A stretch of 64,000 bases of DNA, taken from positions 189,657 through 253,656 of the forward strand of contig NZ_JBBPEV010000005.1 in assembly GCF_038069945.1 (NCBI RefSeq). Reading direction: 5' to 3'. The position numbers were made by a program, and so were the translations under genes. This stretch comes from Aquabacterium sp. A3. GTDB lineage: Bacteria > Pseudomonadota > Gammaproteobacteria > Burkholderiales > Burkholderiaceae_C. The notes beneath the pieces are model-generated. The model saw only the letters and a program-made list of their open reading frames with translations, searched no databases and had not been told where the DNA came from. This document shows, piece by piece, positions 35,176-61,503 of the stretch (the stretch's first letter is position 1; each line of letters opens with the position of its first letter).

Positions 35176-35880
35176 TCAGATCGACATCAATTCACGCACA
35201 CCGTCGGCCTCCATGTCGGCACCGCGGCCACGGCGAATCACCTCGCCACGCTCCATCACCAGGTACTGGTCGGCCAGTTCGGCCGCAAAGTCGTAGAACT
35301 GCTCCACCAGCACCACGGCCATCTTCTGGCCATTCAAGCCCTCGTCGGCCAGCTTGCGAATGGCCCGTCCGATGTCTTTGATGATGCTGGGCTGGATGCC
35401 CTCGGTGGGCTCATCCAGGATCAGCACCTTGGGGCCGGCGCACAGCGCGCGGGCGATGGCCAGCTGCTGCTGCTGCCCGCCGGAGAGGTCGCCACCCCGG
35501 CGACCCAGCATCTGCTTGAGCACGGGAAAGAGCTCGAACAACTGCTCGGGCACCGGCGTGCTGCCGGGCTTGGAGGCCAGGCCCATCTGCAGGTTTTCGG
35601 CCACCGTGAGGCGACCGAAGATCTCGCGGCCCTGGGGCACATAACCCATGCCCAGACGAACCCGCTCGTAAGGTTTTTGTCCGTTGATGGAGCGGCCATC
35701 GAGCTGGATGTCGCCGCTCTTGATGGGCACGAGACCCATCAGGCTCTTGAGCAGCGTGGTTTTGCCCACGCCGTTGCGCCCCAGGATGACGGTGACCTCG
35801 CCCACTTTGGCCTCGAAGCTCAGGCCGCGCAGGATGTGCGAGCCGCCGTAGTATTGATTCACACTGTTGATTTGCAGCAT
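35176..35880 (-). CDS. urtE: Urea ABC transporter ATP-binding protein UrtE
   Basis: 234 residues. The Walker A motif is [13 protein letters not shown] near residue 38, the ABC signature is [15 protein letters not shown], and Walker B is [33 protein letters not shown] at the start and [11 protein letters not shown] are typical of UrtE rather than LivF. It is the last gene of the urtABCDE operon. With UrtD it powers high-affinity urea uptake, which feeds the urease encoded 16 kb away. Confidence 0.95.
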
Positions 35881-36004: not shown

Positions 36005-36901
36005 TTAACGTCCCAGATAAACCTCAACGACCTTGTCGTTGGCCTGCACCTCGGCCAGCGTGCCTTCGGCCAGCACCGAGCCCTCATGCAGCACGGTCAC
36101 CTTCTTCTTGCCGGCCGTGGGGCCTTGCGTGGTCAGCTCGTGGATGAACTTCATGTCGTGCTCAACGACGACCAGCGAGTGCTTGCCCTCCAGCGAGAGG
36201 AACAACTCGGCCGTGCGCTCGGTTTCTTCATCTGTCATGCCCGCCACGGGTTCGTCCAGCAGCAAGAGCTTGGGGTCTTGCATGAGCAACATGCCGATCT
36301 CCAGCCACTGCTTTTGCCCGTGCGAGAGCAAGCCGGCCGTGCGCTGGGCCTGGTCTTTCAGGTGGATGAGCTGCAGCATGGCGGCGATGCGGTCGAGCTG
36401 TTCGCCACTGAGTTTGAAAAACACCGAGGCACGCGCCCGACGGTCGGCCTTGAGCGCCAGCTCCAGGTTCTCGAACACGCTCAGGTGCTCGAACACGGTG
36501 GGCTTTTGAAACTTGCGGCCGATGCCGATCTGCGCGATCTCGTTTTCGCGCATTTTCAGCAGGTCGATGGTTGACCCAAAAAACGCCGTGCCGGTGTCCG
36601 GCCTCGTTTTGCCGGTGATCACATCCATCATCGTGGTCTTGCCCGCACCATTGGGGCCGATGATGCAACGCATCTCACCCACCGAGATGTCCAGGCTGAG
36701 CTTGTTCAAGGCCTTGAAGCCGTCAAAGCTGACCTCGATGTCCTCCAGGTACAGGATCGAGCCGTGGGCCACATCCAGCTGGCCGGGCTCCACCACACGG
36801 CTGTAGCTGGCCTCGCGCCCGCCAGATTCTCCGGCATTGGTGGGAGCTTGATAGGCGCGCGACAGGGTCTTGGCGCCTTCTTCCATCAGATCGGGCGTCA
36901 T
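36005..36901 (-). CDS. urtD: Urea ABC transporter ATP-binding protein UrtD
   Basis: 298 residues from ATG 36901, which overlaps the urtC stop as ATGA. An N-terminal extension of about 55 residues precedes the ABC domain (LYLEDIEVSFDGFKALNKLSL). Walker A is GPNGAGKTTMMDVITGKTRPD, the signature is LLSHGQKQWLEIGMLL (SHGQ form usual in UrtD), and Walker B is LLLLDEPVAGMTDEE. The SHGQKQWLE motif separates UrtD from LivG. It functions with UrtE as the ATPase pair for urea import. Confidence 0.95.
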   Translation of the reverse strand: MTPDLMEEGAKTLSRAYQAPTNAGESGGREASYSRVVEPGQLDVAHGSILYLEDIEVSFDGFKALNKLSLDISVGEMRCIIGPNGAGKTTMMDVITGKTRPDTGTAFFGSTIDLLKMRENEIAQIGIGRKFQKPTVFEHLSVFENLELALKADRRARASVFFKLSGEQLDRIAAMLQLIHLKDQAQRTAGLLSHGQKQWLEIGMLLMQDPKLLLLDEPVAGMTDEETERTAELFLSLEGKHSLVVVEHDMKFIHELTTQGPTAGKKKVTVLHEGSVLAEGTLAEVQANDKVVEVYLGR

Positions 36902-38028
36902 GCCTTCACCTCCGCCTTCTTGTTGAACAGTTTCTTCACGCCGCCGACGATGCCATCGGGCAGGAACAGCGTCACCAGCACGAACAGCAGGCCCAGGAAG
37001 TACAGCCAGTACTCCGGAAAGGCCACCGTGAACCAGCTCTTGGCCCCGTTGACAAAGAAGGCGCCGATGATGGGGCCGATCAGCGTGGCGCGACCGCCCA
37101 CCGCCGTCCAGATGGCCATCTCGATCGAGGCCGCGGGCGACATCTCGCTGGGGTTGATGATGCCCACCTGGGGCACATACAGGGCCCCGGCGATGGCGCA
37201 CATCACGGCCGACAGCGTCCAGATCGCCAGCTTGTAGGCCAGGGGGTTGTAGCCGCAGAACATGACGCGGTTTTCGGCATCACGGATGGCCTGCAGCACC
37301 CGACCGAACTTGGTGTTCACCAGCCAGCGGGCCATCAGGTAGAAGCCGATCAGCGTGAGCCCCGTGATGATGAACAGCACCATGCGGGTGGACGGCTGGG
37401 CGATGGTGATGCCCAGGATGCGCTTGAAGTCGGTGAAGCCGTTGTTGCCGCCAAAGCCGGTTTCATTGCGGAAGAACAGCAACATGGCCGCGAAGGTGAG
37501 CGCCTGGGTGATGATGGAGAAGTACACCCCCTTGATGCGCGAGCGGAAGGCAAAGAAGCCGAAGATGAAGGCCAACAGGCCCGGCACCAGCACCACCAGG
37601 ATCATCTGCCCGATGAAGGAGTCGCTGAACGTCCAGTGCCAGGGCACTTCTTTCCAGTCCAGAAACACCATGAAATCGGGCAACTCGGAGCCGTAGCTGC
37701 CATCGGTGCCGATCTGGCGCATCAGGTACATGCCCATGCCATAACCGCCCAGGGCGAAGAACAGCCCATGCCCCAGCGACAGGATGCCGGTGTAGCCCCA
37801 GATCAGGTCCATGGCCAGCGCGCAGATGGCGTAGCACATGATCTTGCCGATCAGCGCCAGCATGTAGTCGGACAGGTGGAAGGCCGAGCCCTCGGGCACC
37901 AACAGGTTGAGCACGGGGGCCAGCACCACCACGCTGATGATGGCCGCCATGAGGGCGGTCCAGCCGGTCGGGCCCAGCAGAAGCCCGCTTTGGGGCTTGA
38001 GCAAGACAGAAGAGGTGATTGAACTCAT
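36898..38028 (-). CDS. urtC: Urea ABC transporter permease UrtC
   Basis: 376 residues from ATG 38028, which has AGGA eight bases upstream; an in-frame ATG 15 bases further out lacks this. Ten or so membrane segments fit the LivM-like permease family. Family motifs include DLIWGYTGILSLGHGLFFALGGYGMGMYLM and the C-terminal GALYVPQVGIINPSEMSPAASIEM. It forms the membrane channel with UrtB. The gap to urtB is only 28 bases. Confidence 0.94.
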   Translation of the reverse strand: MSSITSSVLLKPQSGLLLGPTGWTALMAAIISVVVLAPVLNLLVPEGSAFHLSDYMLALIGKIMCYAICALAMDLIWGYTGILSLGHGLFFALGGYGMGMYLMRQIGTDGSYGSELPDFMVFLDWKEVPWHWTFSDSFIGQMILVVLVPGLLAFIFGFFAFRSRIKGVYFSIITQALTFAAMLLFFRNETGFGGNNGFTDFKRILGITIAQPSTRMVLFIITGLTLIGFYLMARWLVNTKFGRVLQAIRDAENRVMFCGYNPLAYKLAIWTLSAVMCAIAGALYVPQVGIINPSEMSPAASIEMAIWTAVGGRATLIGPIIGAFFVNGAKSWFTVAFPEYWLYFLGLLFVLVTLFLPDGIVGGVKKLFNKKAEVKA

Positions 38029-38056
38029 GGTGTGATTCCTCAAGCGTATCGGGGGG

Positions 38057-39688
38057 TCATGCCTCGCGGCCCTTGAAGGCGAACAGCCCTTGGGGTCGCT
38101 TCTGGATGAAGATCACCACCATGATCAGCACCATGATCTTGGCCAGCACGGCGCCCGACCATCCTTCCAGGAACTTGTTGATCATCCCCAGGCCCAGCGC
38201 GGCGTAGACCGTGCCGGCCAACTGCCCCACCCCGCCGGTGACCACCACCATGAACGAGTCGACGATGTAGGCTTGGCCGAGGTCTGGCCCCACATTACCC
38301 ACCTGCGACAAGGCGCACCCTGCCAGCCCGGCGATGCCGGCGCCCAGCGAAAACGCCAGGGTGTCGATGCGCGCCGTGTTGACGCCCATGCACGAGGCCA
38401 TGGCGCGGTTTTGCGTCACGCCGCGCACGAACAGGCCCAATCGGGTGCGGGCGATGAGCAGGGACACGCCCACCAGCACCAGCACCGCAAACGCGATGAT
38501 GGCCAGGCGGTTATAGGGCAAGGTGAGGTTGCTGAGCACGTCCATGCCGCCAGACAACCAGCTGGGGTTCTCGACCTGCACGTTCTGTGCGCCGAAGATG
38601 GTGCGCACCAGCTGCATCAGGATGAGGCTGATGCCCCACGAGGCAAGCAGCGTTTCCAGCGGCCGACCGTAGAGGAAGCGAAACACACTGCGCTCCAGGA
38701 TGGCCCCCACGATGGCCGCGGCCATGAAGGAGGCCGGCACGGCCAGCCAGATGTAGTAATCAAACGCGCCAGGCAGGTACTGCCGAAACAGGTTTTGCAC
38801 CACGAAGGTGGCGTAAGCGCCGATCATGATCAGCTCGCCATGGGCCATGTTGATCACGCCCATGAGGCCGTAGGTGATGGCCAGACCGAGGGCGGCCAGC
38901 AACAAGATCGACCCCAGGCTGATGCCGGTGAAGATCACGCCGGCGTGTTCACCCCAGGCCAGGGTGCGGTTGACCTGTTTGAGCGAGTCTTCCAGCGCGG
39001 CCATCACGGCCGGGTCGGTTTCTTCCTCGGGCTGCATGCGCTCCATCAACAGGGCACGCACCTCGGGGCTGCCCTTGCCGGCCAGCAGACTGGCGGCCTC
39101 GATGCGCCGAGCGGGGTCTTTGGCACGCAACAGGATCTTGGCCTGCACGGTTTCCAGCTGCTTGCGCAAGGCAGGCACGGTTTCCTGGGCCAGGGCCTGC
39201 TCCACCGCAGGCAGTTTGGATTCATCCGGTGCCTCGGCCACCGCATCGATGGCGGACTCGCGCTCGTCGGCATCGTCGCTGAGCAATTTGGGCAGGGCCA
39301 GCACGGCCTCCAGCTCGCCACTCATGCGGCTGTTGTTGACCACATCTTCTGCCGCCTCGGGCAGCGGCATCACCTCACCCGTGATGGCATGGCGGGCGGT
39401 TTCGCCGTCGTAGATCAGCACGGTCTCACCCGCAACCTTCACCTGATCGGCCAACAGGGCTTCGATCAGCGCGGGCAAGGCCGGGTCATTGCGTGGCGTG
39501 AGCGCCTGCAGCGCGGCGATGCGCTCGTCGTTGTCGCCTGCCGAGATGGACAGGGCCTCGGGCATGGTGAGCGCATGCGCCCCGGACGTCAGCATCAACA
39601 CCACCAGGCCGCACACGCTGGCGGCCTGCCTCAAAGAACCCCACACACGGTGTGGCGCATGGCTGACATCAATTGATTTCACAGGCAT
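38057..39688 (-). CDS. urtB: Urea ABC transporter permease UrtB
   Basis: 543 residues from ATG 39688, preceded by AGGA; ATGs at 39718 and 39706 are in frame but unsupported. The N-terminal third is a secreted-looking extension (signal-like CGLVVLMLTSGAHAL, then helical repeats with alternating leucine and alanine). The LivH-like permease follows from about residue 250 (GLAITYGLMGVINMAHGELIMIGAY). Such long UrtB proteins are usual in proteobacteria. It follows two tandem hairpins after urtA, which should lower its expression relative to the binding protein. Confidence 0.93.
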   Translation of the reverse strand: MPVKSIDVSHAPHRVWGSLRQAASVCGLVVLMLTSGAHALTMPEALSISAGDNDERIAALQALTPRNDPALPALIEALLADQVKVAGETVLIYDGETARHAITGEVMPLPEAAEDVVNNSRMSGELEAVLALPKLLSDDADERESAIDAVAEAPDESKLPAVEQALAQETVPALRKQLETVQAKILLRAKDPARRIEAASLLAGKGSPEVRALLMERMQPEEETDPAVMAALEDSLKQVNRTLAWGEHAGVIFTGISLGSILLLAALGLAITYGLMGVINMAHGELIMIGAYATFVVQNLFRQYLPGAFDYYIWLAVPASFMAAAIVGAILERSVFRFLYGRPLETLLASWGISLILMQLVRTIFGAQNVQVENPSWLSGGMDVLSNLTLPYNRLAIIAFAVLVLVGVSLLIARTRLGLFVRGVTQNRAMASCMGVNTARIDTLAFSLGAGIAGLAGCALSQVGNVGPDLGQAYIVDSFMVVVTGGVGQLAGTVYAALGLGMINKFLEGWSGAVLAKIMVLIMVVIFIQKRPQGLFAFKGREA

Positions 39689-39716
39689 GTCCTGTCTTTC
39701 ACTCATCTTGCAGCTC

Positions 39717-39753
39717 AAAAAAATAGCCCCCTGGGGTCACCCCCAGCGGGGCT
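39717..39753 (-). terminator. Second urtA-urtB intergenic terminator
   Basis: On the minus strand the stem AGCCCC-G-CTGGGG / CCCCAG-GGGGCT (39725-39753, four-base loop) is followed by A then seven T residues (39717-39723). This is a strong intrinsic terminator inside the urt operon, 29 bases before the urtB start. Partial readthrough would give more UrtA than permease. Confidence 0.87.
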
Positions 39754-39847: not shown

Positions 39848-41125
39848 TCACTTGACTTCAGGCTCGTCTTTCTTCTTGTCGTTGCCAGGGATGTAGGGGC
39901 TCCAGGGCTGGGCCTTGATCGGGCCCGGGGTCTTCCACACCACCTTGAACTGACCGTCGGCCTTGATCTCGCCGATGAAGACGGGCTTGTGCAGGTGGTG
40001 GTTCTTCTCGTCCATCTTGGACATGAAACCGCCCGGGGCCTTGAAGGTCTGACCCGCCATGGCCTTGATCACGGCGTCCACATCGGTGGTCTTGGCCTTG
40101 GTGACGGCCTGCGCCCACATGTTGATGCCGATGTAGGTGGCTTCCATCGGGTCGTTGGTCAGCGGCTTGTCCTTGTGGCCAGGGATGTTCTTGGCCTTGG
40201 CGTAGTCGCTCCACTTCTTGATGAAGGCGTCGTTGGTCGGGTTCTTGATCGACATGAAGTAGTTCCATGCGGCCAGGTGGCCCACCAGCGGCTTGGTGTC
40301 CACACCGCGCAGTTCTTCTTCACCCACCGAGAAGGCCACCACGGGCACGTCCTTGGCCTTCAGGCCCTGGTTGCCCAGTTCCTTGTAGAAGGGCACGTTG
40401 GAGTCGCCGTTGATGGTCGAGATCACGGCCGTCTTTTTGCCTTCAGACGCGAACTTCTTGATCTTGGCGATGATGGTTTGATAGTCAGAGTGGCCGAAGG
40501 GGGTGTACTCCTCCATGATGTCGGCCTCGGCCACGCCCTTGCTCTTCAGGAAGGCGCGCAGGATTTTGTTGGTGGTGCGGGGGTAGACGTAGTCGGTGCC
40601 CAGCAGCACGAAGCGCTTGGCCGAACCACCGTCCTTGCTCATCAGGTATTCCACAGCGGGAATGGCTTGCTGGTTGGGGGCGGCACCGGTGTAGAACACG
40701 TTCTTCTCGAGCTCTTCACCTTCGTACTGCACGGGGTAGAACAGCAGGCCGTTGTTCTCCTTGAACACGGGCAGCACCGACTTGCGGGACACCGAGGTCC
40801 AGCAACCGAAGACCACATCGACCTTGTCCTGGGTCAGCAGTTGCTTGGCCTTTTCGGCAAACAGGGGCCAGTTGGAGGCCGGATCCACCACCACGGGCTC
40901 GAGCTTCTTGCCCAGCAGGCCGCCCTTGGCGTTGATCTCGTCGATGGCCATCAGGACGGTGTCCTTGAGCACGGTTTCCGAGATGGCCATGGTGCCGGAC
41001 AGCGAGTGCAGCACGCCGACCTTGATGGTGTCGGCGGCGATAGCCATGGAGCTGAAGGCCAGACCGGCGACGCCCAGGGCGACGGCGGACAGGGATTGAA
41101 CGGCACTGCGACGGGTGAGTTTCAT
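39848..41125 (-). CDS. urtA: Urea ABC transporter substrate-binding protein UrtA
   Basis: 425 residues from ATG 41125, with CAGGAG upstream. A signal peptide, possibly Tat-type (MKLTRRSAVQSLSAVALGVAGL, ending at SSMAIAA), precedes a periplasmic-binding protein of the Leu/Ile/Val-urea group. DTIKVGVLHSLSGTMAISE, VDVVFGCWTSVSRKSVLPVF and GTDYVYPRTTNKILR are the UrtA/FmdD family motifs. It binds urea or short amides and delivers them to UrtBC. It heads the operon; a perfect palindrome lies upstream at 41199-41216. Confidence 0.96.
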   Translation of the reverse strand: MKLTRRSAVQSLSAVALGVAGLAFSSMAIAADTIKVGVLHSLSGTMAISETVLKDTVLMAIDEINAKGGLLGKKLEPVVVDPASNWPLFAEKAKQLLTQDKVDVVFGCWTSVSRKSVLPVFKENNGLLFYPVQYEGEELEKNVFYTGAAPNQQAIPAVEYLMSKDGGSAKRFVLLGTDYVYPRTTNKILRAFLKSKGVAEADIMEEYTPFGHSDYQTIIAKIKKFASEGKKTAVISTINGDSNVPFYKELGNQGLKAKDVPVVAFSVGEEELRGVDTKPLVGHLAAWNYFMSIKNPTNDAFIKKWSDYAKAKNIPGHKDKPLTNDPMEATYIGINMWAQAVTKAKTTDVDAVIKAMAGQTFKAPGGFMSKMDEKNHHLHKPVFIGEIKADGQFKVVWKTPGPIKAQPWSPYIPGNDKKKDEPEVK

Positions 41126-41198
41126 GGGTGAGCGCTCCTGGTAAGCGTGGGTTGTTGAATCAGTGAACCCAGTGTGCCCAGGGGCCCCAAAACGAGGA

Positions 41199-41216
41199 AT
41201 ACGCCACATGGCGTAT
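41199..41216. promoter_or_regulatory. 18-bp perfect palindrome upstream of urtA
   Basis: ATACGCCACATGGCGTAT is an 8-2-8 inverted repeat. The inner heptamers TACGCCA and TGGCGTA are in the 7-2-7 layout used by NarL/LuxR-type response regulators. It lies 74 bases upstream of the urtA start and 49 bases from the divergent methyltransferase-like gene. A LuxR-type response regulator encoded at 46411-47370 is a candidate ligand (inference). Confidence 0.6.
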
Positions 41217-41264
41217 CGGTGTGTCGCCTGGGCGACGTCATGGCCTAGACTGATGGCGCCAATC

Positions 41265-44398: not shown

Positions 44399-45547
44399 AT
44401 GAAATCGCCGCAGACGATTACCCCCCCGTTCCCGCCCGGCCTGAGATGGCGCGTCGTGATGCCGCGGCTGGCGCTGCTCAACGAAATCCTCGTCTGGGTC
44501 GGCGCCATTTCCATGCACGTCACCGACGTGCTGGCTGGCGGGGGACGGACCAGCCTGGGTCTGCCCTACCAGTTGCTGTGGATCCACCTCATCGGCCTGT
44601 GCGGCCTGACCATCAACGGCTCGGTCATACTGGGGCTGGCGCGGCGCGGTTGGCGCATGACGCCAGACATGGCCGAACGCTACGCCCAGCGAGGCGTCTA
44701 CCTTGGATTGCCTGCGCGCGTCCGCTGGCAGCTCTTGCTGGGCGGGATCTTCAGCATTGGTGCGGCGTCCCTGGCGGCCCAGACGCTCATGGCGGTCTGT
44801 CTGGCCTTGCCCTTGGCAGAGGGCTTGCCTGATGTGCTACCGCCCTTTCAGTTCGCCCTGTTCAACTCGCTGTACGGGTGCCTGGCGGTGTACGCGTTCG
44901 AAGCCTTCCAGGACCGCGTGGCGCTGAGCCGCTGGCGCGTGCAACGTGCCGAAGAACTCACGGCGCAGGCGCAGCTGGACCTGCTGCGCTCGCAGCTCGA
45001 TCCGCACATGCTGTTCAACACGCTGGCCAATGTGGTTGATTTGATGGAAGAAAACCCGAAACAAGCTCGGGACATGGTCAACCGCCTCATTGGGTTCCTG
45101 CGGGCCACGCTGGCGGGCAGTCGAGCCAGCGAGCAGGCGCTCAGCCAAGAGTTCGCGCTGGTCGCAGATTACCTGTCCATCATGCAGATTCGCATGGCCG
45201 ACCGCCTGCGCGTGCGCCTGGATCTGCCCGAGACCCTGGCGTCGGTGAAGGTGCCCGCGCTGGTACTTCAGCCCCTTGTGGAGAACGCCATCGAGCACGG
45301 CCTGGCGCCCCACCGGCAGGGTGGGCAACTGGACATCACCGCCCGGCACCAAGGCGGCTGCCTGGTCCTGGAGGTGAGCAACACCGCCGAAGTGCCCCCT
45401 GCCTCCGACCCCCATGGGGGATTCGGTCTGGCGTGTGTGCAACAGCGCTTGCATGCGCTGCACGGTGACCGCGGCCTGCTGGAGTTGTCGCATGATGCCG
45501 CTCAACAACTGACGCGTGCCACGGTGCGCGTTCCCTTGTCCACCTGA
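44399..45547 (+). CDS. LytS/YehU-type sensor histidine kinase
   Basis: 382 residues. Four membrane segments occupy residues 20-180, followed by the His_kinase family domain with LLRSQLDPHMLFNTLANVVDLM; the phosphorylated histidine is in DPHMLFN. The ATP-binding part has LQPLVENAIEHGLAP and GFGLACVQQRL. No periplasmic sensor domain is present. It is followed after 60 bases by its LytTR response regulator. Confidence 0.92.
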   Translation: MKSPQTITPPFPPGLRWRVVMPRLALLNEILVWVGAISMHVTDVLAGGGRTSLGLPYQLLWIHLIGLCGLTINGSVILGLARRGWRMTPDMAERYAQRGVYLGLPARVRWQLLLGGIFSIGAASLAAQTLMAVCLALPLAEGLPDVLPPFQFALFNSLYGCLAVYAFEAFQDRVALSRWRVQRAEELTAQAQLDLLRSQLDPHMLFNTLANVVDLMEENPKQARDMVNRLIGFLRATLAGSRASEQALSQEFALVADYLSIMQIRMADRLRVRLDLPETLASVKVPALVLQPLVENAIEHGLAPHRQGGQLDITARHQGGCLVLEVSNTAEVPPASDPHGGFGLACVQQRLHALHGDRGLLELSHDAAQQLTRATVRVPLST

Positions 45548-45607
45548 GCTACCCCCGCTCCCCCGCCACCTCCGATGAAATCCGCGCCGCCGGCCCAAAC
45601 GCTGCCC

Positions 45608-46387
45608 ATGAATTCGACCGTCCGTGCCGTGCTCGCTGAAGATGAGCCGGTGCTGGCCCGCGGACTGGCTCGGTCACTGCGTGGTCTGTGGCCCCAGCTT
45701 CACCTCGACAGCATCGTGCACGACGGGCGTGCGGCAGTAGAAGCAGCACTCACCCACCTGCCCGACCTGCTGCTGCTTGACATCCGGATGCCGGAGCTCT
45801 CCGGGCTGGAAGCTGCGCGTCACGTCGTGGACGACTGGCCCGAAGGGCGTGCACTGCCGCTGCTGGTGTTCATCACCGCGTTCGACCGCTTCGCGATCGA
45901 GGCGTTCGAAGCAGGCGCCATCGACTACGTGCTCAAACCGGTGGAGCCCGCACGCCTGAGAACAACGGTGTCCCGACTGCAGGCCCGGATGACCGAACGG
46001 GAGGGCCACACCTCACGCGCCATTCAAAGCTGTCACCAGCTCGAGCGCCATGCCGGACACGCGCCGCTGCGCCACATCCAGGCGGCGCACGGCAACAGTC
46101 TCCACTTGGTGCCCATTGAGGCGGTGCGCTGCCTCATCGCGGATGACAAATACGTGCAAGTGCACACCTCTGAGCGCGTCTGGTTGATCCGAACCCCCAT
46201 GCGTGAACTTGCCAGCCGGCTGTCGCCTGACCTGTTCGTACAAATCCATCGTGGCTGCATCGTGCGCTGGAATGCCATCGACCGCATCGAGCGCGATGAC
46301 AGCGGCCGCTTGTGCGTGCACCTTGCTGGTCTGGCCCAAGCGCTGTGGGTCAGCCGCAGCCATGCCCATCACTTCCGGGCCATGTGA
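45608..46387 (+). CDS. LytTR-family response regulator
   Basis: 259 residues from ATG 45608; an ATG at 45575 is also in frame and no ribosome site decides. The receiver has VLAEDEPVLARGLARSL and the phosphoacceptor in LLLLDIRMPELSGLEAA, with the conserved lysine in DYVLKPVEPARL. The LytTR DNA-binding domain starts near residue 155 (IEAVRCLIADDKYVQVHT and QIHRGCIVRWNAIDRIERD). It pairs with the kinase before it. Target genes are not evident. It is convergent with the LuxR-type regulator. Confidence 0.91.
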   Translation: MNSTVRAVLAEDEPVLARGLARSLRGLWPQLHLDSIVHDGRAAVEAALTHLPDLLLLDIRMPELSGLEAARHVVDDWPEGRALPLLVFITAFDRFAIEAFEAGAIDYVLKPVEPARLRTTVSRLQARMTEREGHTSRAIQSCHQLERHAGHAPLRHIQAAHGNSLHLVPIEAVRCLIADDKYVQVHTSERVWLIRTPMRELASRLSPDLFVQIHRGCIVRWNAIDRIERDDSGRLCVHLAGLAQALWVSRSHAHHFRAM

Positions 46388-46410: not shown

Positions 46411-47370
46411 TCAACGCGCCTTGAGCTGGGCCACGCGGCTCATGGCCAGGCCTGCTGCCGCCGTGCGGGTCTCCACGCCCAGCTTGGCGAAGATGTGCTC
46501 CAGTTGCTTCTTGACGGTGGCCGGGCTGCTGCCCAGGATGTCGCCGATGTCGCGGTTGGTCTTGCCGCGCACCACCCAGTACAGCACCTCGCCTTCGCGG
46601 GTGGTGAGCTTGAACTCCTGTGTCAGGGCGTCGATGGCGGCCTGATCCGAGCTCTCCTGCATCACCAGCAGCCATTCATCGTCACCCGTGGGCTGGTGCA
46701 GGGTGAAGCTCAGGCGGCTGCCTGCCTGGTTCACCGTCCACACCGGCACGGCGCTGGGTGGCCGCCCTGCCGCCAGGTCACGGCTGAGCGCAGGCGCCGT
46801 CTGCAGCAACCAATCGGCCAGTTCGGCCGGCGCCACGGAATCAGGCGCATCAAAGTAGGTTTGCAGCAGCTTGCGGGCCAAAGGCGTTTGCCACAGCACC
46901 CGCCCGTCGCTGATGCGCACCGTCAGCGACGCGTGTCCGAAGGCGTCCAGCGCATTGCGCGCCTGACGCGCCTGGCGGGCGCTTTGCATGTGGGCCTCGA
47001 TGCGGGCCATCACCTCGCGCGGGCGGATGGGCTTGGTCACGTAGTCCACCCCGCCGGCCTGGAAGGCTGCCACCACGTGCTCGGTTTCGGTCAGCCCGGT
47101 CATGAACACGATGGGGATGTGGCTGGTCTCGGCCTGCGCCTTGAGGCGGCGCGCCACCTCGAAGCCATCCATGCCCGGCATGATGGCGTCCAGCAAGATG
47201 ATGTCGGGCACGGCCTGCGTGGCGCGCTGCATGGCCGCCTCGCCGTGGGTGGCCACCAGCACGGTGTAGCCCGCCTCGTCCAGCGCATCGTGCAGCAACG
47301 ACAGGTTATCGGGCACATCGTCCACGATGAGCACGACGTCGGTGCGGCTGCGGTCCAGGTGTTCGAGCAT
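46411..47370 (-). CDS. LuxR/NarL-type response regulator paired with the NCS1-kinase fusion
   Basis: 319 residues from ATG 47370, two bases after the stop of the upstream hybrid kinase. The receiver (residues 10-125) has LIVDDVPDNLSLLHDAL, phosphoacceptor in IILLDAIMPGMDGFE, and YVTKPIRP. A middle region of about 120 residues is PAS-like in size but not confidently identified. A LuxR-type helix-turn-helix ends the protein (LTTREGEVLYWVVRGKTNRDIGDIL). It should bind an inverted-repeat site. The palindrome upstream of urtA is a candidate target. Confidence 0.91.
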   Translation of the reverse strand: MLEHLDRSRTDVVLIVDDVPDNLSLLHDALDEAGYTVLVATHGEAAMQRATQAVPDIILLDAIMPGMDGFEVARRLKAQAETSHIPIVFMTGLTETEHVVAAFQAGGVDYVTKPIRPREVMARIEAHMQSARQARQARNALDAFGHASLTVRISDGRVLWQTPLARKLLQTYFDAPDSVAPAELADWLLQTAPALSRDLAAGRPPSAVPVWTVNQAGSRLSFTLHQPTGDDEWLLVMQESSDQAAIDALTQEFKLTTREGEVLYWVVRGKTNRDIGDILGSSPATVKKQLEHIFAKLGVETRTAAAGLAMSRVAQLKAR

Positions 47371-47372
47371 GG

Positions 47373-50300
47373 TCAGGCGGCGTTGGCCTCGGAAGACTCC
47401 GGGCCCGATTGTGCCTGCTCCAGGCAAGACCTCACCGAATGGGCCAGGGCATCGAGCTGAAACTGCTTGGCCCACTGCCGGTGGCGCTGCACAAAGGCAT
47501 CGCACTGCGGCTCGGCGGCGGCGATCTGGTCCAGCACCTTGTGCACGCCGCGCACATAACCGGCATGGATCTGGTCTTCCAGGCTGCGCAAGGCCTCCAC
47601 CGAAGGCATGGCCTCGGGGGCGCTGGACTCGGCCGGCACGATGGCCTGTGGCGCCGCGGCACGGGCTGCCTCCACCCATTGCAGCTGCAAACGACGACCC
47701 AGCCAGTCCAGCAACTCGGCCACCCGCACGGGCTTGACGATGAAGTCGTCGGGGGTGATGCCCACGTCGTTGTCCAGCGCCTTGTCAAAGGCGTTGGCCG
47801 AGACGATGGCCACGGCCGCCTCGGTCAGGCCCTCGTCACGAGCCTGACGCAGGGTGTCCCAGCCGTCCAGCCCGGGCATGGCCAGGTCCATGAAGATGGC
47901 ATCGGGGTGCTGCGTGGGCGGCAGCAGCCGCAACTGGGCCAGACACTCCAGCCCCGAAGGCAAGGGCGTCACCTCGAAGCCCAGGGGCTCCAGGATGCGC
48001 ACCAGCAGGCCGCGATCGGCCTCTTCGTTGTCCACGGCCCAGATGCGGCGCCGCTCACCCACGTAGCCGATGCGTTGACCACGCGGCACGACGTGAGGCA
48101 CCTCGGCATGGCGCACCTGCGGCAAAAACAGCCGAATGCGGAAGCTCGTGCCCTGACCTGGCACGCTGTGCACGGTCATCTCGCCGCCCATCAGGTCGGT
48201 CAGCATCTTGCTGATGGTCAGGCCCAGGCCGGTGCCCCCCACCGAGGAGCCCGCCGCCGAAGAGCCCCGCGCGAAGGGCTCGAACACCTTGTCCAGCTCC
48301 TCGGTGGCGATGCCGGGCCCGGTGTCGGTGATCTCGATGTGGGCGATCTCGCGGGCGTAACGCAGGCTCAAACGCACCTGCCCGGCTTGCGTGAACTTCA
48401 CGGCGTTGCCCAACACATTGATCAAAATCTGCCGCACGCGGCGCTCATCGGCCCGCACGGCCTCAGGCAAGGCCGGGTCGATGTCGGCGATGAACTGCAG
48501 GTGCTTGGCCCGGGCCTCGTGCTCGATCAGGCCGGTGATCTGCTTGAGCAGCTCACCCAGCAACACGGGTTTGACGTCCAGCGTCAGCTTGCCGCTTTCA
48601 ATGCGGGCGATGTCCAGCGTGCCTTCGATCAGCGACAGCAGGTGGTCGCCCCCGCGCTTGATCACGCCCACGGCGTGCTTGACGTGCTCGGGCAGCGTCA
48701 GATCGTCATCCAGCAGTTGCGCATAGCCCAGGATGCCATTGAGCGGCGTGCGCAACTCATGGCTGATGGTCGAGATGTAGCGGCTTTTGGCGTGGTTGGC
48801 CTGTTCGGCCACGTGCTTGGCCTGTTGCAGCTTTTCATCGGTGATGCGGTGCAGGTCGATTTCGCGCACCAGCAAATGGGTCTGGCGGTTGGATTCTTCT
48901 TGCGCCACCTGGCGGCTTTTGTGCGTCAGCACCACCCACCAGCTCACCACCCCCACGATCAGCAAGAGCGCAGCAAACAGCTTGAGCAAGGTGTCCTTGA
49001 GCATGCTGGCGGCCCCGGCGTAGGCCTGAGCATCCAGCTGCCCCAGGTCTTTGAGCTGCTGCTGGTAGACCAGGCCGAACAAGGCGGCCAGCAAGGGCGC
49101 CAGCACCAGCATGATCAACAGAAAGTGCCCCAACTCGGTGTCCACCCGTTGCCACACCGGGCCCGGCATCAAGCGTGTGGCCAGGGCACGCCACTGCACG
49201 GCCCAGCGCGCATGGGGTTTGCACAAATCCTGACAGCGTGCGTCCAGCGCGCAGCACAGCGAGCAGATGAAGCCCTGGTAAGCCGGACACTGGGCCACGT
49301 CATCGGCCTCGTACTCGCGCTCGCACACCGTGCAGCGGTGCAAGGCCTTGAGGCGAATCACCCGGGCCAGCGGGGCGCCTTCGGTGTCGGGCGCGGTTTC
49401 GTCTGTTGCGGCCACCAGCGGCTGCCGAGCGAGGTAATAGCGACCCCGCGTGGCCCACGCGATCAACGGCGAGGTCACGAACGCCACCACCATGGCGATC
49501 ACCGCCGAAAACGCCTGGGCCACCTCACCCATCCAGCCCACATGCGCCATCATGGACACCAGCGAGGCCAGGCTCATGGCGCCCACGCCCACCGGATTGA
49601 TGTCGTACAAGTGCGCGCGCTTGAACTCGATGCCACGGGGCGACCAGCCCATGGGTTTGTTGACCACCAGGTCGGCCACCACGGCCATCATCCACGCGAT
49701 GGCGATGTTGGCGTACAGCCCCAGCACCTTGCCCAGCGCCTGGAACACATTGAGCTCCATCAGCAGCAGGGCAATCAGCGCGTTGAACACCACCCACACC
49801 ACGCGACCGGGGTGGCTGTGCGTGACACGGGCAAAGAAGTTGGACCACGCCAGCGAGCCCGCGTAGGCGTTGGTGACGTTGATCTTCATCTGCGAGATCA
49901 CGACAAACACCACCACGGCCGCGATGGCCCAGGTCTGGTGCCCCACGATCAGCTTCCACACCACCAGGTACATCTGATTCGGGTCGAGGGCGTCATCCAC
50001 CGAGCGCCCCACCTGCAGGGCCAGAAAGGCCAGCAAGGCGCCACCCAGCATCTTGAGCACGCCCATGATCACCCATCCAGGCCCACCCACGAAGACATTG
50101 AGGTGCCAGCGCCAATCTGATCGGTCGCGCGCTGGCCGCACGGGCTCGGGCATGAAGCGCAGGTAATCGGCCTGCTCGCCCATCTGCGTGATCAGGGCGA
50201 TGCCCACCGTCAAGGCCGCGCCAAACGCCAGCAGGTCAAAACCCTGGTGGGTGCCGGTCTTGCCGGCGTACTGCATCAACTCGGGCAGCAAATTGGGCTG

Positions 50301-50945
50301 GGTCTGAAACACATACACAAACGGAATGACCAGCATCACCAGCCAGATGGGCTGGGTGAGCACCTGCAGCCAGCTGATGGTGGTGATGCCGTGGGTGACC
50401 AAGGGGATGACCACCACGGCACACACCAGGTAACCCCAGGCTGGCGGGATGCCAAAGGCCAGCTCCAGCGCATAGGCCATGACGGCGGCCTCCAGCGCAA
50501 AGAAGATGAAGGTGAAGGACGCGTAGATCAGCGAGGTGATGGTGGAGCCGATGTAGCCGAAGCCCGCGCCGCGGGTGAGCAAATCCATGTCAACGCCGTA
50601 ACGGGCCGCATAGATGCTGATGGGCCACCCCGCCAGCAAGATCAGCAGGCCCGTGGCCACGATGGCCCAGAAGGCGTTGATGAACCCGTATTCGATGAGC
50701 AAGGTGGCACCCAGCGCCTCCAGCACCAGGAACGAGGCCACGCCAAAGGCCGTGTTGGCCACCCAGGAGCCGCCCCACTTGCGCGCTGAACGTGGGGTGA
50801 AGCGCAGGGCGTAATCCTCGATGGTCTCATCGGCCACCCAGCTGTTGTAATCACGTCGCACCTTGACGACCCGCTGCGGAGCCTCCGGGGCGTGGGCGTG
50901 GGCGCTGCTGAAGGCGTCTGGACGAAACTGGTCTGTCTCTTGCAT
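47373..50945 (-). CDS. NCS1 permease - cysteine cluster - histidine kinase - receiver fusion
   Basis: 1190 residues from ATG 50945; a GTG at 51011 would leave no space to divergent ureA. Residues about 30-480 form an NCS1 nucleobase/allantoin-type transporter (WIGWVANTAFG-like start WGGSWVANTAFG, then GFGYIGSTITSLIYASFTF, about twelve helices). A cluster of eight cysteines (CTVCERE, QCPAYQG, ICSLCCAL, RCQDLC) spans about 537-577. Two more membrane helices follow. The HisKA domain has SHELRTPLNG near residue 730, the ATPase has VGGTGLGLTISKML, and the receiver has IFMDLAMPGLDGWD; the last 130 residues are helical and may be an Hpt-like domain. It is divergent from urease and coupled to a LuxR-type regulator, so it probably senses urea or a related nitrogen compound (inference). 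Confidence 0.9.
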   Translation of the reverse strand: MQETDQFRPDAFSSAHAHAPEAPQRVVKVRRDYNSWVADETIEDYALRFTPRSARKWGGSWVANTAFGVASFLVLEALGATLLIEYGFINAFWAIVATGLLILLAGWPISIYAARYGVDMDLLTRGAGFGYIGSTITSLIYASFTFIFFALEAAVMAYALELAFGIPPAWGYLVCAVVVIPLVTHGITTISWLQVLTQPIWLVMLVIPFVYVFQTQPNLLPELMQYAGKTGTHQGFDLLAFGAALTVGIALITQMGEQADYLRFMPEPVRPARDRSDWRWHLNVFVGGPGWVIMGVLKMLGGALLAFLALQVGRSVDDALDPNQMYLVVWKLIVGHQTWAIAAVVVFVVISQMKINVTNAYAGSLAWSNFFARVTHSHPGRVVWVVFNALIALLLMELNVFQALGKVLGLYANIAIAWMMAVVADLVVNKPMGWSPRGIEFKRAHLYDINPVGVGAMSLASLVSMMAHVGWMGEVAQAFSAVIAMVVAFVTSPLIAWATRGRYYLARQPLVAATDETAPDTEGAPLARVIRLKALHRCTVCEREYEADDVAQCPAYQGFICSLCCALDARCQDLCKPHARWAVQWRALATRLMPGPVWQRVDTELGHFLLIMLVLAPLLAALFGLVYQQQLKDLGQLDAQAYAGAASMLKDTLLKLFAALLLIVGVVSWWVVLTHKSRQVAQEESNRQTHLLVREIDLHRITDEKLQQAKHVAEQANHAKSRYISTISHELRTPLNGILGYAQLLDDDLTLPEHVKHAVGVIKRGGDHLLSLIEGTLDIARIESGKLTLDVKPVLLGELLKQITGLIEHEARAKHLQFIADIDPALPEAVRADERRVRQILINVLGNAVKFTQAGQVRLSLRYAREIAHIEITDTGPGIATEELDKVFEPFARGSSAAGSSVGGTGLGLTISKMLTDLMGGEMTVHSVPGQGTSFRIRLFLPQVRHAEVPHVVPRGQRIGYVGERRRIWAVDNEEADRGLLVRILEPLGFEVTPLPSGLECLAQLRLLPPTQHPDAIFMDLAMPGLDGWDTLRQARDEGLTEAAVAIVSANAFDKALDNDVGITPDDFIVKPVRVAELLDWLGRRLQLQWVEAARAAAPQAIVPAESSAPEAMPSVEALRSLEDQIHAGYVRGVHKVLDQIAAAEPQCDAFVQRHRQWAKQFQLDALAHSVRSCLEQAQSGPESSEANAA

Positions 50946-51013
50946 AGTGGCATTCTGATCCGGCCCCAAGACCGCAAATTCAATGCCCGGGGCCACCGAC
51001 CTGCCAGGCACCC

Positions 51014-51316
51014 ATGGAACTCACCCCACGCGAGAAAGACAAGCTGCTCATCTTCACCGCCGCCTTGCTGGCCGAGCGGCGAAAGGCACGCGGCCTGAAG
51101 TTGAACTACCCCGAAGCCGTGGCCTTGATCACCGCCGCCATCATGGAAGGCGCGCGTGATGGCAAGACCGTGGCCGACCTGATGAGCGATGGCAAGACCG
51201 TGCTCAGCCGGGCCGACGTGATGGAGGGAGTGGCCGACATGATCCCCGAGATCCAGGTGGAGGCCACCTTCCCGGATGGCACCAAATTGGTGACCGTGCA
51301 CCAACCCATTGCATAA
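51014..51316 (+). CDS. ureA: Urease gamma subunit
   Basis: 100 residues, full length. [32 protein letters not shown] and [27 protein letters not shown] are canonical UreA motifs. It is the first visible gene of the urease operon and starts 68 bases from the divergent transporter-kinase gene. In many betaproteobacteria ureD stands directly before ureA; here it does not. Confidence 0.97.
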
Positions 51317-51932: not shown

Positions 51933-53660
51933 ATGGCAAGCATCCCCCGACGCGCCTATGCCGAAATGTTCGGCCCCACCACTGGCGACCGCGTCCGCCT
52001 GGCCGACACCAACCTCATCATTGAAGTTGAAAACGACCTGACCCTGCGCGCTGGCGGCTATGGGGAAGAGGTCAAGTTCGGTGGTGGCAAGACCATCCGC
52101 GATGGCATGGGCCAGGGGCAGCGCCCCAACGGGCCTGGCGCGGGTGACGCCTGCGACTGCGTGATCACCAACGCGCTGATCCTGGACCACTGGGGCATCG
52201 TCAAGGCCGACATCGGCATCAAGGCCGGCCGCATCGTCAAGATCGGCAAGGCCGGCAACCCCGATGTGCAGCCGGGCGTGGACATCGTCATCGGCCCAGG
52301 CACAGAGATCGTGGCCGGCGAAGGCATGATCGTCACGGCCGGCGGCATCGACACCCACATCCACTTCATCTGCCCGCAGCAGATCGAAGAGGCGCTGATG
52401 AGCGGGGTGACCACCATGATCGGTGGCGGCACCGGGCCGGCCACGGGCACCTTTGCCACCACCTGCACGCCAGGGCCCGACAACCTGGCCCTGATGCTCA
52501 AGGCGGCCGAAGCCTTCCCGATGAACATCGGCTTCCTGGCCAAGGGCAACGCCAGCCAGCCCGAGGCCTTGCGCCAGCAGGTGCACGCCGGCGCCATCGG
52601 CATGAAGTTGCACGAAGACTGGGGCACCACACCGGCGGCCATCGACTGCTGCCTGAGCGTGGCCGAAGAAACCGACGTGCAGGTGGCCATCCACACCGAC
52701 ACGCTCAATGAATCGGGCTTTGTCGAAGACACCGTGGCGGCGTTCAAGGGCCGCACCATCCACAGCTTTCACACCGAAGGCGCCGGCGGCGGACACGCCC
52801 CCGACATCATGAAGGTGGTGGGCGAGCTCAATGTGCTGCCCTCGTCCACCAACCCCACCCGCCCCTACACGGTCAACACCATCGACGAGCACCTGGACAT
52901 GCTGATGGTGTGTCACCACCTGGACGCGTCCATCGCCGAAGACCTGGCCTTTGCGGAAAGCCGCATCCGGCGCGAGACCATCGCCGCCGAAGACATCCTG
53001 CACGACCTGGGCGCCATGAGCATGTTCAGCTCGGACTCGCAGGCCATGGGCCGCGTGGGCGAGGTCATCATGCGCACTTGGCAGACGGCCCACAAGATGA
53101 AGGCGCAGCGCGGTGCCCTGCCCGGTGACACGGCACGGCATGACAACGCCCGCGTGAAGCGTTATGTGGCCAAGTACACGATGAACCCGGCGCTGGCCCA
53201 TGGCATCGCCCACGAGGTGGGCAGCGTGGAAGAAGGCAAATGGGCCGATCTGGTGATCTGGAAGCCCGCCTTCTTTGGCGTCAAACCCAGCATCATCATG
53301 AAAGGCGGCTTCATTGCAGCGGCGGCCATGGGCGACCCCAACGCCTCCATCCCCACGCCGCAGCCCGTGCATTACCGGCCCATGTTTGGCAGCTTTGGGG
53401 GCGCTTTGTCACGTACCTCGCTGGCGTTCTTGAGCCAGTCGGCCATCGCTGCGGGCGTCCCGGGCGAGCTGGGGCTGAACAAGCAGATCGTGGGCGTCAA
53501 GGGCTGCCGCACCGTCAAGAAGACGGACATGGTTCACAACAGTTACCTGCCCAAGATGGAAATCGACGCGCAAACCTACCAGGTGCGCGCCGACGGGCAG
53601 TTGCTGGTGTGCGAACCCGCCACCGAATTGCCGATGGCGCAGAAGTACTTCTTGTTCTGA
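51933..53660 (+). CDS. ureC: Urease alpha (catalytic) subunit
   Basis: 575 residues, normal length. Nickel ligands and active-site residues are intact: GGIDTHIHF, the lysine that becomes carbamylated in [24 protein letters not shown], and the flap histidine in MVCHHLD. The start [26 protein letters not shown] is canonical. It hydrolyses urea to ammonia and carbamate. Maturation needs UreDEFG; UreD is not found in this window. Confidence 0.98.
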
Positions 53661-60453: not shown

Positions 60454-61503
60454 TTATTGTGCCTGCAGTGACGGCGAGGCCTCCAAGGGATGGGCGCGCT
60501 GGAGCATGGCGTCCAGCGGACTGGCCACCCCGCCGCCGCCCACCTTGAGCACATGGGTGTAGATCATGGTGGTGCTGACATCGCTGTGGCCCAGCAGCTC
60601 TTGCACGGTGCGGATGTCGTACCGGGCCTGCAGCAGGTGGGTGGCGAAGGAGTGGCGCAGCGAGTGCGGCGTGGCCTGCTTGGCGATCTGGGCCACCGCC
60701 AGGGCCTTCTTGAAGGCACGCTGGAAGGCCTGGTCTTGCGCGTGGTGGCGGCGCACTTCGCCCGTGCGCGGATCGCCCGACAGCTCGGGCTGGGCAAATA
60801 CCCAGAACCACGACCAACTGAGGCCCGCGCGCGGGTTCTTGCGCTCCAGCGCATGTGGCAGGTACACCGGGCCCACACCCGCATCACGATCGGCCTGCCA
60901 CCACAGGTGCACCTGCTGCAGGTGCTGGCGCAGCACCGGGATCAAGGCGTCGGGCAGCATCACGGTGCGGTCTTTGGCGCCCTTGCCTTCGCGCACGATG
61001 ATGGCGCGGTGATCGAAGTCGATGTCTTTGACGCGAAGGCGCAGACCCTCCATCAAGCGCATGCCGGTGCCATACAGCAACTGTCCCAACAGGCGGTGCT
61101 GCGCGGGCAAGGCCGCCAACAAGCGCGCCACTTCGTCTTGGGTGAGCACCACCGGCAAGCGCTGCGTGGCCTTGGGACGCTGCACATCATTCAGCCACGG
61201 CAGGGTCTGGCCCAACACCTTGGCGTACAAAAACAGCAAAGCCGACAGCGCCTGTTTGTGGGTGTTGCCCGAGACGGAGCGCTGGGATACCAGGTGCTGC
61301 AGGAAGGCTTCGATCTCAGGGCCCCCCATCTCCTGGGGGTGCCTCAAGCCATGGAAGTGGATGTAGGCCTTGATCCAGTAGACGTAGGCCTCTTCAGTGC
61401 GGCGGCTGTAGTGCAGGTAGCGGATGCGATCGCGCACCTGATCGAGCAGGCGACCGGGGGCTGGTGGAGGAGCAGTGCGGGGCTGTGGGCGTGGCGCGAC
61501 CAT
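60454..61503 (-). CDS. intI: Integron integrase (IntI family tyrosine recombinase)
   Basis: 349 residues. Tyrosine-recombinase residues are present: R in [20 protein letters not shown]-x-x-R in [15 protein letters not shown] in [10 protein letters not shown] and Y in [14 protein letters not shown]. The insertion that separates IntI from XerCD is intact around residues 217-255 ([21 protein letters not shown] and [19 protein letters not shown]). IntI needs it to bind bulged attC hairpins. It should recombine attI with attC. A LexA box lies just upstream. Its codon and base use are like its neighbours, which suggests a long-resident chromosomal integron rather than a recent mobile one. Confidence 0.96.

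Follow-up and report, generated by a model that had tools for sequence, protein, structure and literature searches.

What does a sensor kinase perceive when a transporter-like domain is built into it and its gene stands back to back with urease genes, and which genes does it govern? We addressed this question for the gene at positions 47373 to 50945 of a 64,000-nucleotide stretch of Aquabacterium sp. A3 (contig NZ_JBBPEV010000005.1 of NCBI RefSeq assembly GCF_038069945.1, positions 189,657 to 253,656 of the forward strand), hereafter the window. A preliminary description had read its product as a urea/ureide transceptor controlling urtABCDE and the urease genes. Comparison with relatives suggests, at a probability of roughly three in four, that the product belongs to an NCS1-derived family of receptor kinases for urea or short-chain amides that control uptake genes, and that it serves as the urea receptor at this locus. 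With a candidate family of receptors come its regulator, an operator sequence and a candidate position for selectivity, so that ligand, target and specificity are each directly testable.

Domain organisation of the fusion and its partner

The fusion gene and its regulator gene comprise the following features.

47373..50945, minus strand: NCS1-like transporter / Cys cluster / hybrid histidine kinase fusion, 1190 aa
49221..49334, minus strand: eight-cysteine cluster, residues 538-575, C-x2-C-x11-C-x7-C-x2-CC-x5-C-x3-C, from the sequence
48921..49136, minus strand: two further long helices, about residues 604-675, from a predicted model
48591..48791, minus strand: HisKA, residues 719-785, with H729 (Pfam)
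48123..48449, minus strand: HATPase_c, residues 833-941 (Pfam)
47706..48041, minus strand: receiver (Response_reg), residues 969-1080, with D1020 (Pfam)
46411..47370, minus strand: partner response regulator, REC + GerE (LuxR-type helix-turn-helix), 319 aa (Pfam)

The frame is open from an ATG through 1190 codons and a stop. An alternative GTG start at 51011 would give 1212 aa; we took the ATG because it is retained among several near relatives, whose N-termini read MQxxD with ATGCAAGA kept. A hybrid two-component system is recognisable from HisKA, HATPase_c, a receiver and an adjacent regulator gene, which begins 2 bases past the kinase stop. The phosphosite residues H729, within SHELRTPLN, and D1020 were located directly in the sequence, and each is invariant in 15 sequences. 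On the other side, ureA (start 51014) is divergent from the kinase gene across an intergenic gap of 68 bases.

Between carrier and kinase lies the cluster of Cys 538/541/553/561/564/565/571/575. The pattern C-x2-C..CPAY..ICSxCC-x5-C-x3-C is present in 117 of 123 related open reading frames (ORFs), a set that leaves out L036, L060, L078, L164 and L167, where no full ORF was called; two of the six deviating ORFs (L160, L163) keep the cysteines, with CS replacing CP. By its sequence the cluster is a possible metal site; searched alone against PDB it gave two weak matches (E 1.5 and 2.2). The long helices that follow it span residues 604-634 and the first part of 639-714, as taken from the predicted model rather than from a membrane-topology program. 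Frame reading, Pfam and sequence thus confirm the intact 1190-codon frame with eight cysteines, kinase and receiver given in the preliminary description; its two extra helices are present in the predicted model, and its LuxR-type regulator at 2 bases and 68-base divergence from ureA are as it stated.

The carrier domain resembles NCS1 proteins

The transporter domain is predicted to have a LeuT-type fold. Its nearest structures are NCS1 proteins, CodB matching best, and CodB and Mhp1 are the closest solved folds. The Pfam NCS1 family PF02133 has no match on the fusion protein (E<=0.1) and none genome-wide (E<=0.001), and sequence searches of PDB with the transporter domain alone or with a 19-row profile found no NCS1 structure. 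A stand-alone relative (L167) does match PF02133, at 36.4 bits against a cut-off of 23.5, and it is this bridge, together with the predicted fold, on which we base the assignment as NCS1-like. The 'complete NCS1 permease' claimed earlier needs correction to the extent that Pfam does not recognise one. The SLC5-type chains SiaT and CHT1 score 21.1 and 21.3 in the structure comparison, below NCS1 at 32.1. Pfam gave no SLC5 match on the fusion. Together these results point away from SLC5, tempered by Pfam's having missed NCS1 too and by the LeuT fold that all share. Residues 501-718 have no Pfam match, in a library that may lack a STAC model.

Residues were mapped onto Escherichia coli CodB by hhalign for helix 3 and by eye on shared motifs for helices 6, 8 and 10; the latter mapping is tentative because hhalign aligned only the stretch of helices 1-5, at low probability (22.9%, E 0.0009). 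In NCS1 proteins the base is sandwiched by two aromatics, Trp108 and Phe204 of CodB, conserved throughout the family (PMC9379551). In the low-identity alignment of 83 members, the Trp108 position is F148 in 78 and Leu in 5, while the tentatively mapped Phe204 position is Leu in 83/83; we therefore class the domain as NCS1-like rather than as an orthodox NCS1 carrier. Asn280 of CodB is kept as N356 in 83/83. The Na2-site residues Thr278/Thr279 correspond, on the same tentative mapping, to Lys354/Ile355 in 83/83, so that sodium coupling as in CodB and Mhp1 is unlikely. The fusion thus stays close to CodB and Mhp1 in fold and in N356, and differs from them at Phe204, at Thr278/Thr279 and in carrying a kinase.

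The L167 relative (L167:9249-10742) is a stand-alone NCS1 carrier, the sole non-fused relative in the phylum sample described below, and adjoins genes for a carbon-nitrogen hydrolase and a PF13433 binding protein.

Relatives lie beside urea and amide genes

Neighbours were identified in two sets, with many small clusters left unnamed. The named set consists of the 80 best loci, mostly Burkholderiales by their titles; the flanks reach 10 kb at most and are truncated on some contigs. In these, tblastn found UreA at 68 loci, UreC at 64, the regulator at 72 and UrtA at 19 (the UrtA of L038 being of the amide type). The urea link drawn in the preliminary description is thereby seen to be conserved. 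Twelve loci lack UreA: L043 has UreE, UreF and UreG, L030 has UrtA and UrtB, L038 holds an amide-type fusion copy plus its transporter, and nine carry no urea or amide gene that was seen, three of them (L041, L078, L089) with about 1 kb or less of upstream sequence (<1.1 kb).

The phylum sample yielded 46 loci, 45 with fusions and one with the stand-alone carrier. A UrtA-type protein, FmdA or UreC lies nearby in 44 of them, and the two misses are contig ends. UrtA occurs in 38 (one at just 28% identity), FmdA in 31 and UreC in 6, and a regulator match of >=150 bits in 43. In the usual layout, genes for UrtA, B, C, D and E, FmdA, an FmdB-like protein and an aliphatic amidase follow one another in this order away from the kinase, divergent from the kinase and regulator genes; L161 and L163 have co-directional urt-ure-kinase orders. 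Cluster representatives, one per cluster, were all over cut-off (formamidase 763 bits, aliphatic amidase 708, UrtA 525).

An evenly drawn set of 299 genomes from the phylum, to which the window's own belongs, has the fusion family in 42. A full-length FmdA, at >550 bits, is encoded in 33 of them, and 32 of these also carry the fusion. The ten fusion genomes without it comprise nine with ureC 1-16 kb away, by coordinates compared by hand, and G147, whose fusion lies on a 4.8-kb contig. PF13433 binding proteins are found in 147 of the 299 and ureC in 121; both are often present where the fusion is absent, so that what carries information is the linkage.

Most phylum-sample loci are amide loci, and the window fusion sits in a urease-linked clade. 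Across the family, the ties are chiefly to short-chain amides (FmdA, aliphatic amidase, amide-type UrtA-E); the urease link is confined to some lineages, and urea as a family-wide theme has to be narrowed to these. The fusion does occur away from urea genes, a scatter that the preliminary description had named as counting against its reading, and many such copies stand beside amide genes instead; neither kind was seen in 2/46 (contig ends) and 9/80. Both kinds meet in the genome of Aquabacterium sp. A3 itself, which holds a second fusion (L011, C3:52000-71900) with 50% identity overall and 57% in the N-terminal part; it has its own regulator and is divergent from an amide-type UrtA-E operon with FmdA.

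A single locus of Curvibacter sp. PAE-UM (L038) contains both an amide-type and a window-clade fusion, separated by about 8 kb and both accompanied by a regulator. Shorter fusions of 885 and 894 aa, ending past the kinase, occur at L160 and L165; downstream lie a 416-422 aa gene, FmdA and an FmdB-like zinc ribbon gene. They are possibly a fusion variant with a different regulator.

Urea-linked lineages and residue 420

From 82 N-terminal domains we built a quick maximum-likelihood tree, with SH-aLRT as its only support measure; 37 of the 80 named loci were chosen for it, and L015 and L166 were dropped because they have no clean anchor. The window fusion, whose tree neighbour is that of Aquabacterium fontiphilum, lies in a fully supported clade of 40, and urease was found near 34 of these. 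Further urea-linked lineages stand amid amide-linked ones: L161/L163 and five members of f48, both groups fully supported, and L162. The f48 members and L162 (tree label 'urt') have ureC 8-16 kb away. Several long branches leave the deep positions unsure.

One alignment column follows this division.

49686..49688, minus strand: codon for residue 420 (helix 10; Met in this fusion), a candidate position for urea/amide selectivity

In amide-linked sequences residue 420 is Gly (32/33) or Ala (1/33). In urea-linked sequences it is Met in 40/40 of the window clade, including six members with no urease found nearby, Cys in 5/5 of f48, and Ser in L161, L162 and L164. In sum, 48 of 49 members of urea-linked clades have Met, Cys or Ser, the exception being L163 with Gly. 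Residue 420 is a post hoc candidate, because it was picked by looking through all alignment columns. Helix 10 of Mhp1 closes over the substrate, and Leu363Ala there converts an inhibitor to a substrate (PMC4195764).

A candidate operator upstream of urtA

The target side of the system was approached through shared upstream motifs, for which these features are needed.

41198..41217, no strand assigned: predicted operator AATACGCCACATGGCGTATC, matrix match upstream of urtA, 72 bp from its start (41125)
39848..41125, minus strand: urtA, urea ABC transporter binding protein (TIGR03407, 593 bits, over cut-off)
38057..39718, minus strand: urtB (TIGR03409, over cut-off; ORF as listed, real start probably later)
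36898..38043, minus strand: urtC (TIGR03408, over cut-off)
35176..35880, minus strand: urtE (TIGR03410, over cut-off)
51014..51316, plus strand: ureA (name from the preliminary description rather than a library test; kept beside the kinase by tblastn)
51933..53660, plus strand: ureC, urease alpha subunit (PF00449 match, G000:C5:241595-241969 = window 51939-52313)

Library tests in the window covered urtA, urtB, urtC and urtE (NCBIfam) and ureC (Pfam). The urtA start was set at ATG 41125, where the N-terminus looks signal-peptide-like by eye.

Upstream regions from outside the window's clade, 37 in all and mostly amide-linked but including seven urea-linked ones of other lineages, were searched for paired words of four letters. 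The top pairs, ATAC-N9-CGTA and the palindrome TACG-N8-CGTA, occur in 22 regions each, with four-shuffle means of 0 and 0.25. With the amide-type copy of L038 added, exact sites are found in 24 of 38 regions, as against 0.12 over 50 shuffles. The palindrome ATACGyCnnnnGrCGTAT stands upstream of many relatives outside the window's clade. A matrix was made from 22 sites, none from the window and one from the second fusion copy of its genome. Scanned over the 64-kb window, it gives a single strong match, 22.3 bits at 41198, with a runner-up of 7.8. ATACG-N8-CGTAT has one exact occurrence in the window. Genome-wide, exact ATACGYC-N4-GRCGTA is found in two places, upstream of urtA and in a gap between nikR and a TonB-receptor gene; a control pattern at up to one mismatch has 1 and 3 matches. 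The one-mismatch sites C1:1297528 and C3:293789, inside called genes, and C3:50742 have no evident urea tie and may be chance.

In the window clade, a score >=15 is found upstream of UrtA in 12 of 15 loci; L017, L018 and L067, whose urtA was found by tblastn outside the ORF cluster, are not among the 15, and the count leaves out the amide-type copy of L038, whose site was in the matrix. Ten of 1227 other genes reach 15, six of them sharing the score of their locus's urtA. Upstream of regulator genes the count is 0/86, of FmdA 4/27 and of aliphatic amidase genes 0/15. Phylum UrtA genes have sites in 26 of 31 cases, which is not an independent test because the matrix was built largely from those sites. 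L151, L154, L157, L162 and L166, without an anchor motif, were omitted from the operator counts.

Distal UrtA-type genes score 12.0 and 11.2 in the two window-clade genomes tested; among 18 such genes of amide-type genomes, one scores 12.3 and the rest <=7.7. In 20 genomes without the fusion, from 106 with PF13433, the operator was not found at UrtA-type genes, none exceeding 4.7. Four of 200 shuffled sequences reach 12, with a maximum of 21.7. The operator therefore tracks the kind of fusion present. Control of urtABCDE by the partner regulator, as proposed in the preliminary description, is supported at the sequence level by an operator derived independently from other members. Direct control of ureA in the window, by contrast with that proposal, finds no backing in the 68-bp gap. 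Kinase-ureA regions of the window clade contain TACGCC-N4-GGCG in 13 of 81 cases (shuffles 0.22), the window's not among them and L038's amide-type copy again left out.

The second exact site of the genome (L168:7311-7330; C2:150310) is an operator-like palindrome between nikR and a TonB-dependent receptor gene, and a 20.4-bit site (L217:1394-1413) lies upstream of a related TonB receptor in one relative. Nickel uptake may in this way be linked with the response to urea; we treat this nickel arm as a lead only, because the site is present in just 2 of 7 nikR-receptor loci.

Proposed mechanism and alternative explanations

The fusion lies beside urea genes and its relatives mostly beside urea or amide genes; therefore it probably senses these compounds and controls their uptake genes. 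In the mechanism that we propose, the urea receptor would consist of an NCS1-type carrier with LeuT fold and a hybrid histidine kinase, connected by a cysteine-rich module and two helices. Urea in the carrier-like pocket would change the conformation of the helices and thereby alter kinase activity. Phosphate would pass via the internal receiver, by some further step, to the adjacent REC-LuxR regulator, and the regulator would bind the palindrome ATACGCC-N4-GGCGTAT upstream of urtA and control, most likely activate, urea uptake. Other branches of the family would sense formamide or acetamide and control the amide transporter/formamidase operon likewise. The sequences themselves show the architecture, the gene neighbourhood that relatives retain and where the operator occurs, and the fold is a prediction; we infer urea as the ligand, activation rather than repression, and phosphotransfer to and operator binding by the adjacent regulator.

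Several observations weigh against this proposal. Six named loci (L025, L029, L040, L058, L063, L066) have 7-10 kb of upstream sequence and no urea or amide gene; the regulator is present in five of them, and in two the regulator position matches LytR weakly. The fusion is missing from most genomes with urease, only 13 of the 121 ureC genomes having it within 16 kb. Pfam found no HPt domain in the kinase or the regulator, in a search that did not extend to separate HPt proteins. The 18-base site, allowing up to one mismatch, appears in 15 of 100 window shuffles (mean 0.20), the real one being exact. In the nearest relative (L012) the called urtA start lacks a site (score -1.1), scores >=15 occur upstream of only 1/42 ureA and 2/78 kinase genes of the 80 named loci, and the matrix scan found no operator in the window's own 68-bp kinase/ureA gap. 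The operator could belong to another regulator. The ligand is read from neighbours, and the kinase could respond to transport flux, nitrogen status or another small molecule.

A fuller version of the proposal, which we consider less likely than not, posits a large and apparently undescribed class of receptor kinases, derived from NCS1 carriers and spread over proteobacteria, that would sense urea and short-chain amides without sodium-coupled transport (Lys354 replacing the Na2 site), would have changed between the two ligands in several lineages, and would have residue 420 as a main determinant.

Among the alternatives, the one with most in its favour, though on balance unlikely, is a dual-function transceptor, in which the fusion transports urea or amide and the kinase reports turnover rather than occupancy. 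The carrier fold is kept, with CodB as best match, and a precedent is suggested by the title of a paper on 'Transport and kinase activities of CbrA' (PMC7096432). Lys354-Ile355 in place of the Na2-site threonines, which makes CodB/Mhp1-like sodium coupling unlikely, and the UrtA-type ABC transporter binding protein near 38 of 46 members argue against transport by the fusion itself.

We give still less credence to a different signal, such as nitrogen status, ammonium or a metal at the Cys cluster, with the kinase just travelling with nitrogen-scavenging operons. Such a signal would suit the eight conserved cysteines that separate carrier from kinase and the operator-like site beside nikR in the same genome, a site that is shared by few nikR-receptor loci. 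It fits poorly with two paralogues of one genome (window and L011) that each stand with the genes of a different substrate; moreover, the changes at residue 420 that urea-linked lineages share are not what one would expect from a common non-substrate signal.

A receptor for ureides or nucleobases (allantoin, uracil, cytosine) is highly improbable. The NCS1-like fold and the purine-cytosine permease-like names that JGI gives to several relatives favour it, but no such gene is among the identified recurrent neighbour clusters, several smaller ones being left unidentified, and one aromatic of the base-stacking pair is lost. The allantoin/uracil-type ureides of the preliminary description thus find no support here, whereas the identified recurrent neighbours are urea/amide genes. 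Inheritance of a gene order common to related Burkholderiales, which would make 68/80 something other than 68 independent events in a set mostly of that order, can practically be dismissed, since the urea/amide link contradicts it by holding across other families, orders and classes of the phylum sample and in both divergent and co-directional arrangements.

Relation to known systems

Amide utilisation operons (FmdA, aliphatic amidase, UrtA-type ABC transporter) adjoin most phylum-sample members. A known amidase regulator, AmiC/AmiR, is of another kind than the kinase fusion.

The precedent for transporter-like sensor kinases that was cited earlier, CbrA with its SLC5 domain, is borne out (PMC13022988). 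CbrA, CrbS and RpuS are described as SLC5-STAC histidine kinases, with a carrier joined to a histidine kinase (PMC13022988, PMC5715377, PMC9100948, PMC7096432). The window fusion is like this type in general plan and apparently unlike it in three respects: its carrier seems nearest to NCS1 rather than SLC5, an eight-Cys module and two helices stand where CbrA has a four-helix STAC domain, and it is linked to urea/amide genes. Candidatus Kuenenia stuttgartiensis has an ammonium transporter-histidine kinase fusion (PMC5764959), alike in joining a nitrogen-compound carrier to a histidine kinase; there the domain is an ammonium transporter and the ligand ammonium, whereas the window fusion is NCS1-like.

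Titles and abstract openings, mostly without subscription papers and so falling short of proof of absence, describe neither an NCS1-kinase fusion nor a receptor of such a kind for external urea or small amides. To that extent the urea/amide receptor family is apparently new to the literature. Known transporter-kinase fusions are few (SLC5-STAC, ammonium transporter), and this family would join them as a class of NCS1 type. A protein search with residues 30-700 gave at least 7999 clusters at E<=1e-3; the best 120 of them include several with the JGI names just mentioned, and our reading suggests a function for many proteins there named hybrid kinases, ATP-binding or purine-cytosine permease-like.

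Other features of the window

A second two-component pair, a sensor of the His_kinase family with a BtsR/LytR-like response regulator, adjoins the regulator gene at 44399-46387; its sensor is matched in only L016 among the 80 relatives. Farther away, at 60454-61503, a phage-type integrase gene lies beside a gene for a gyrase/topoisomerase IV A subunit.

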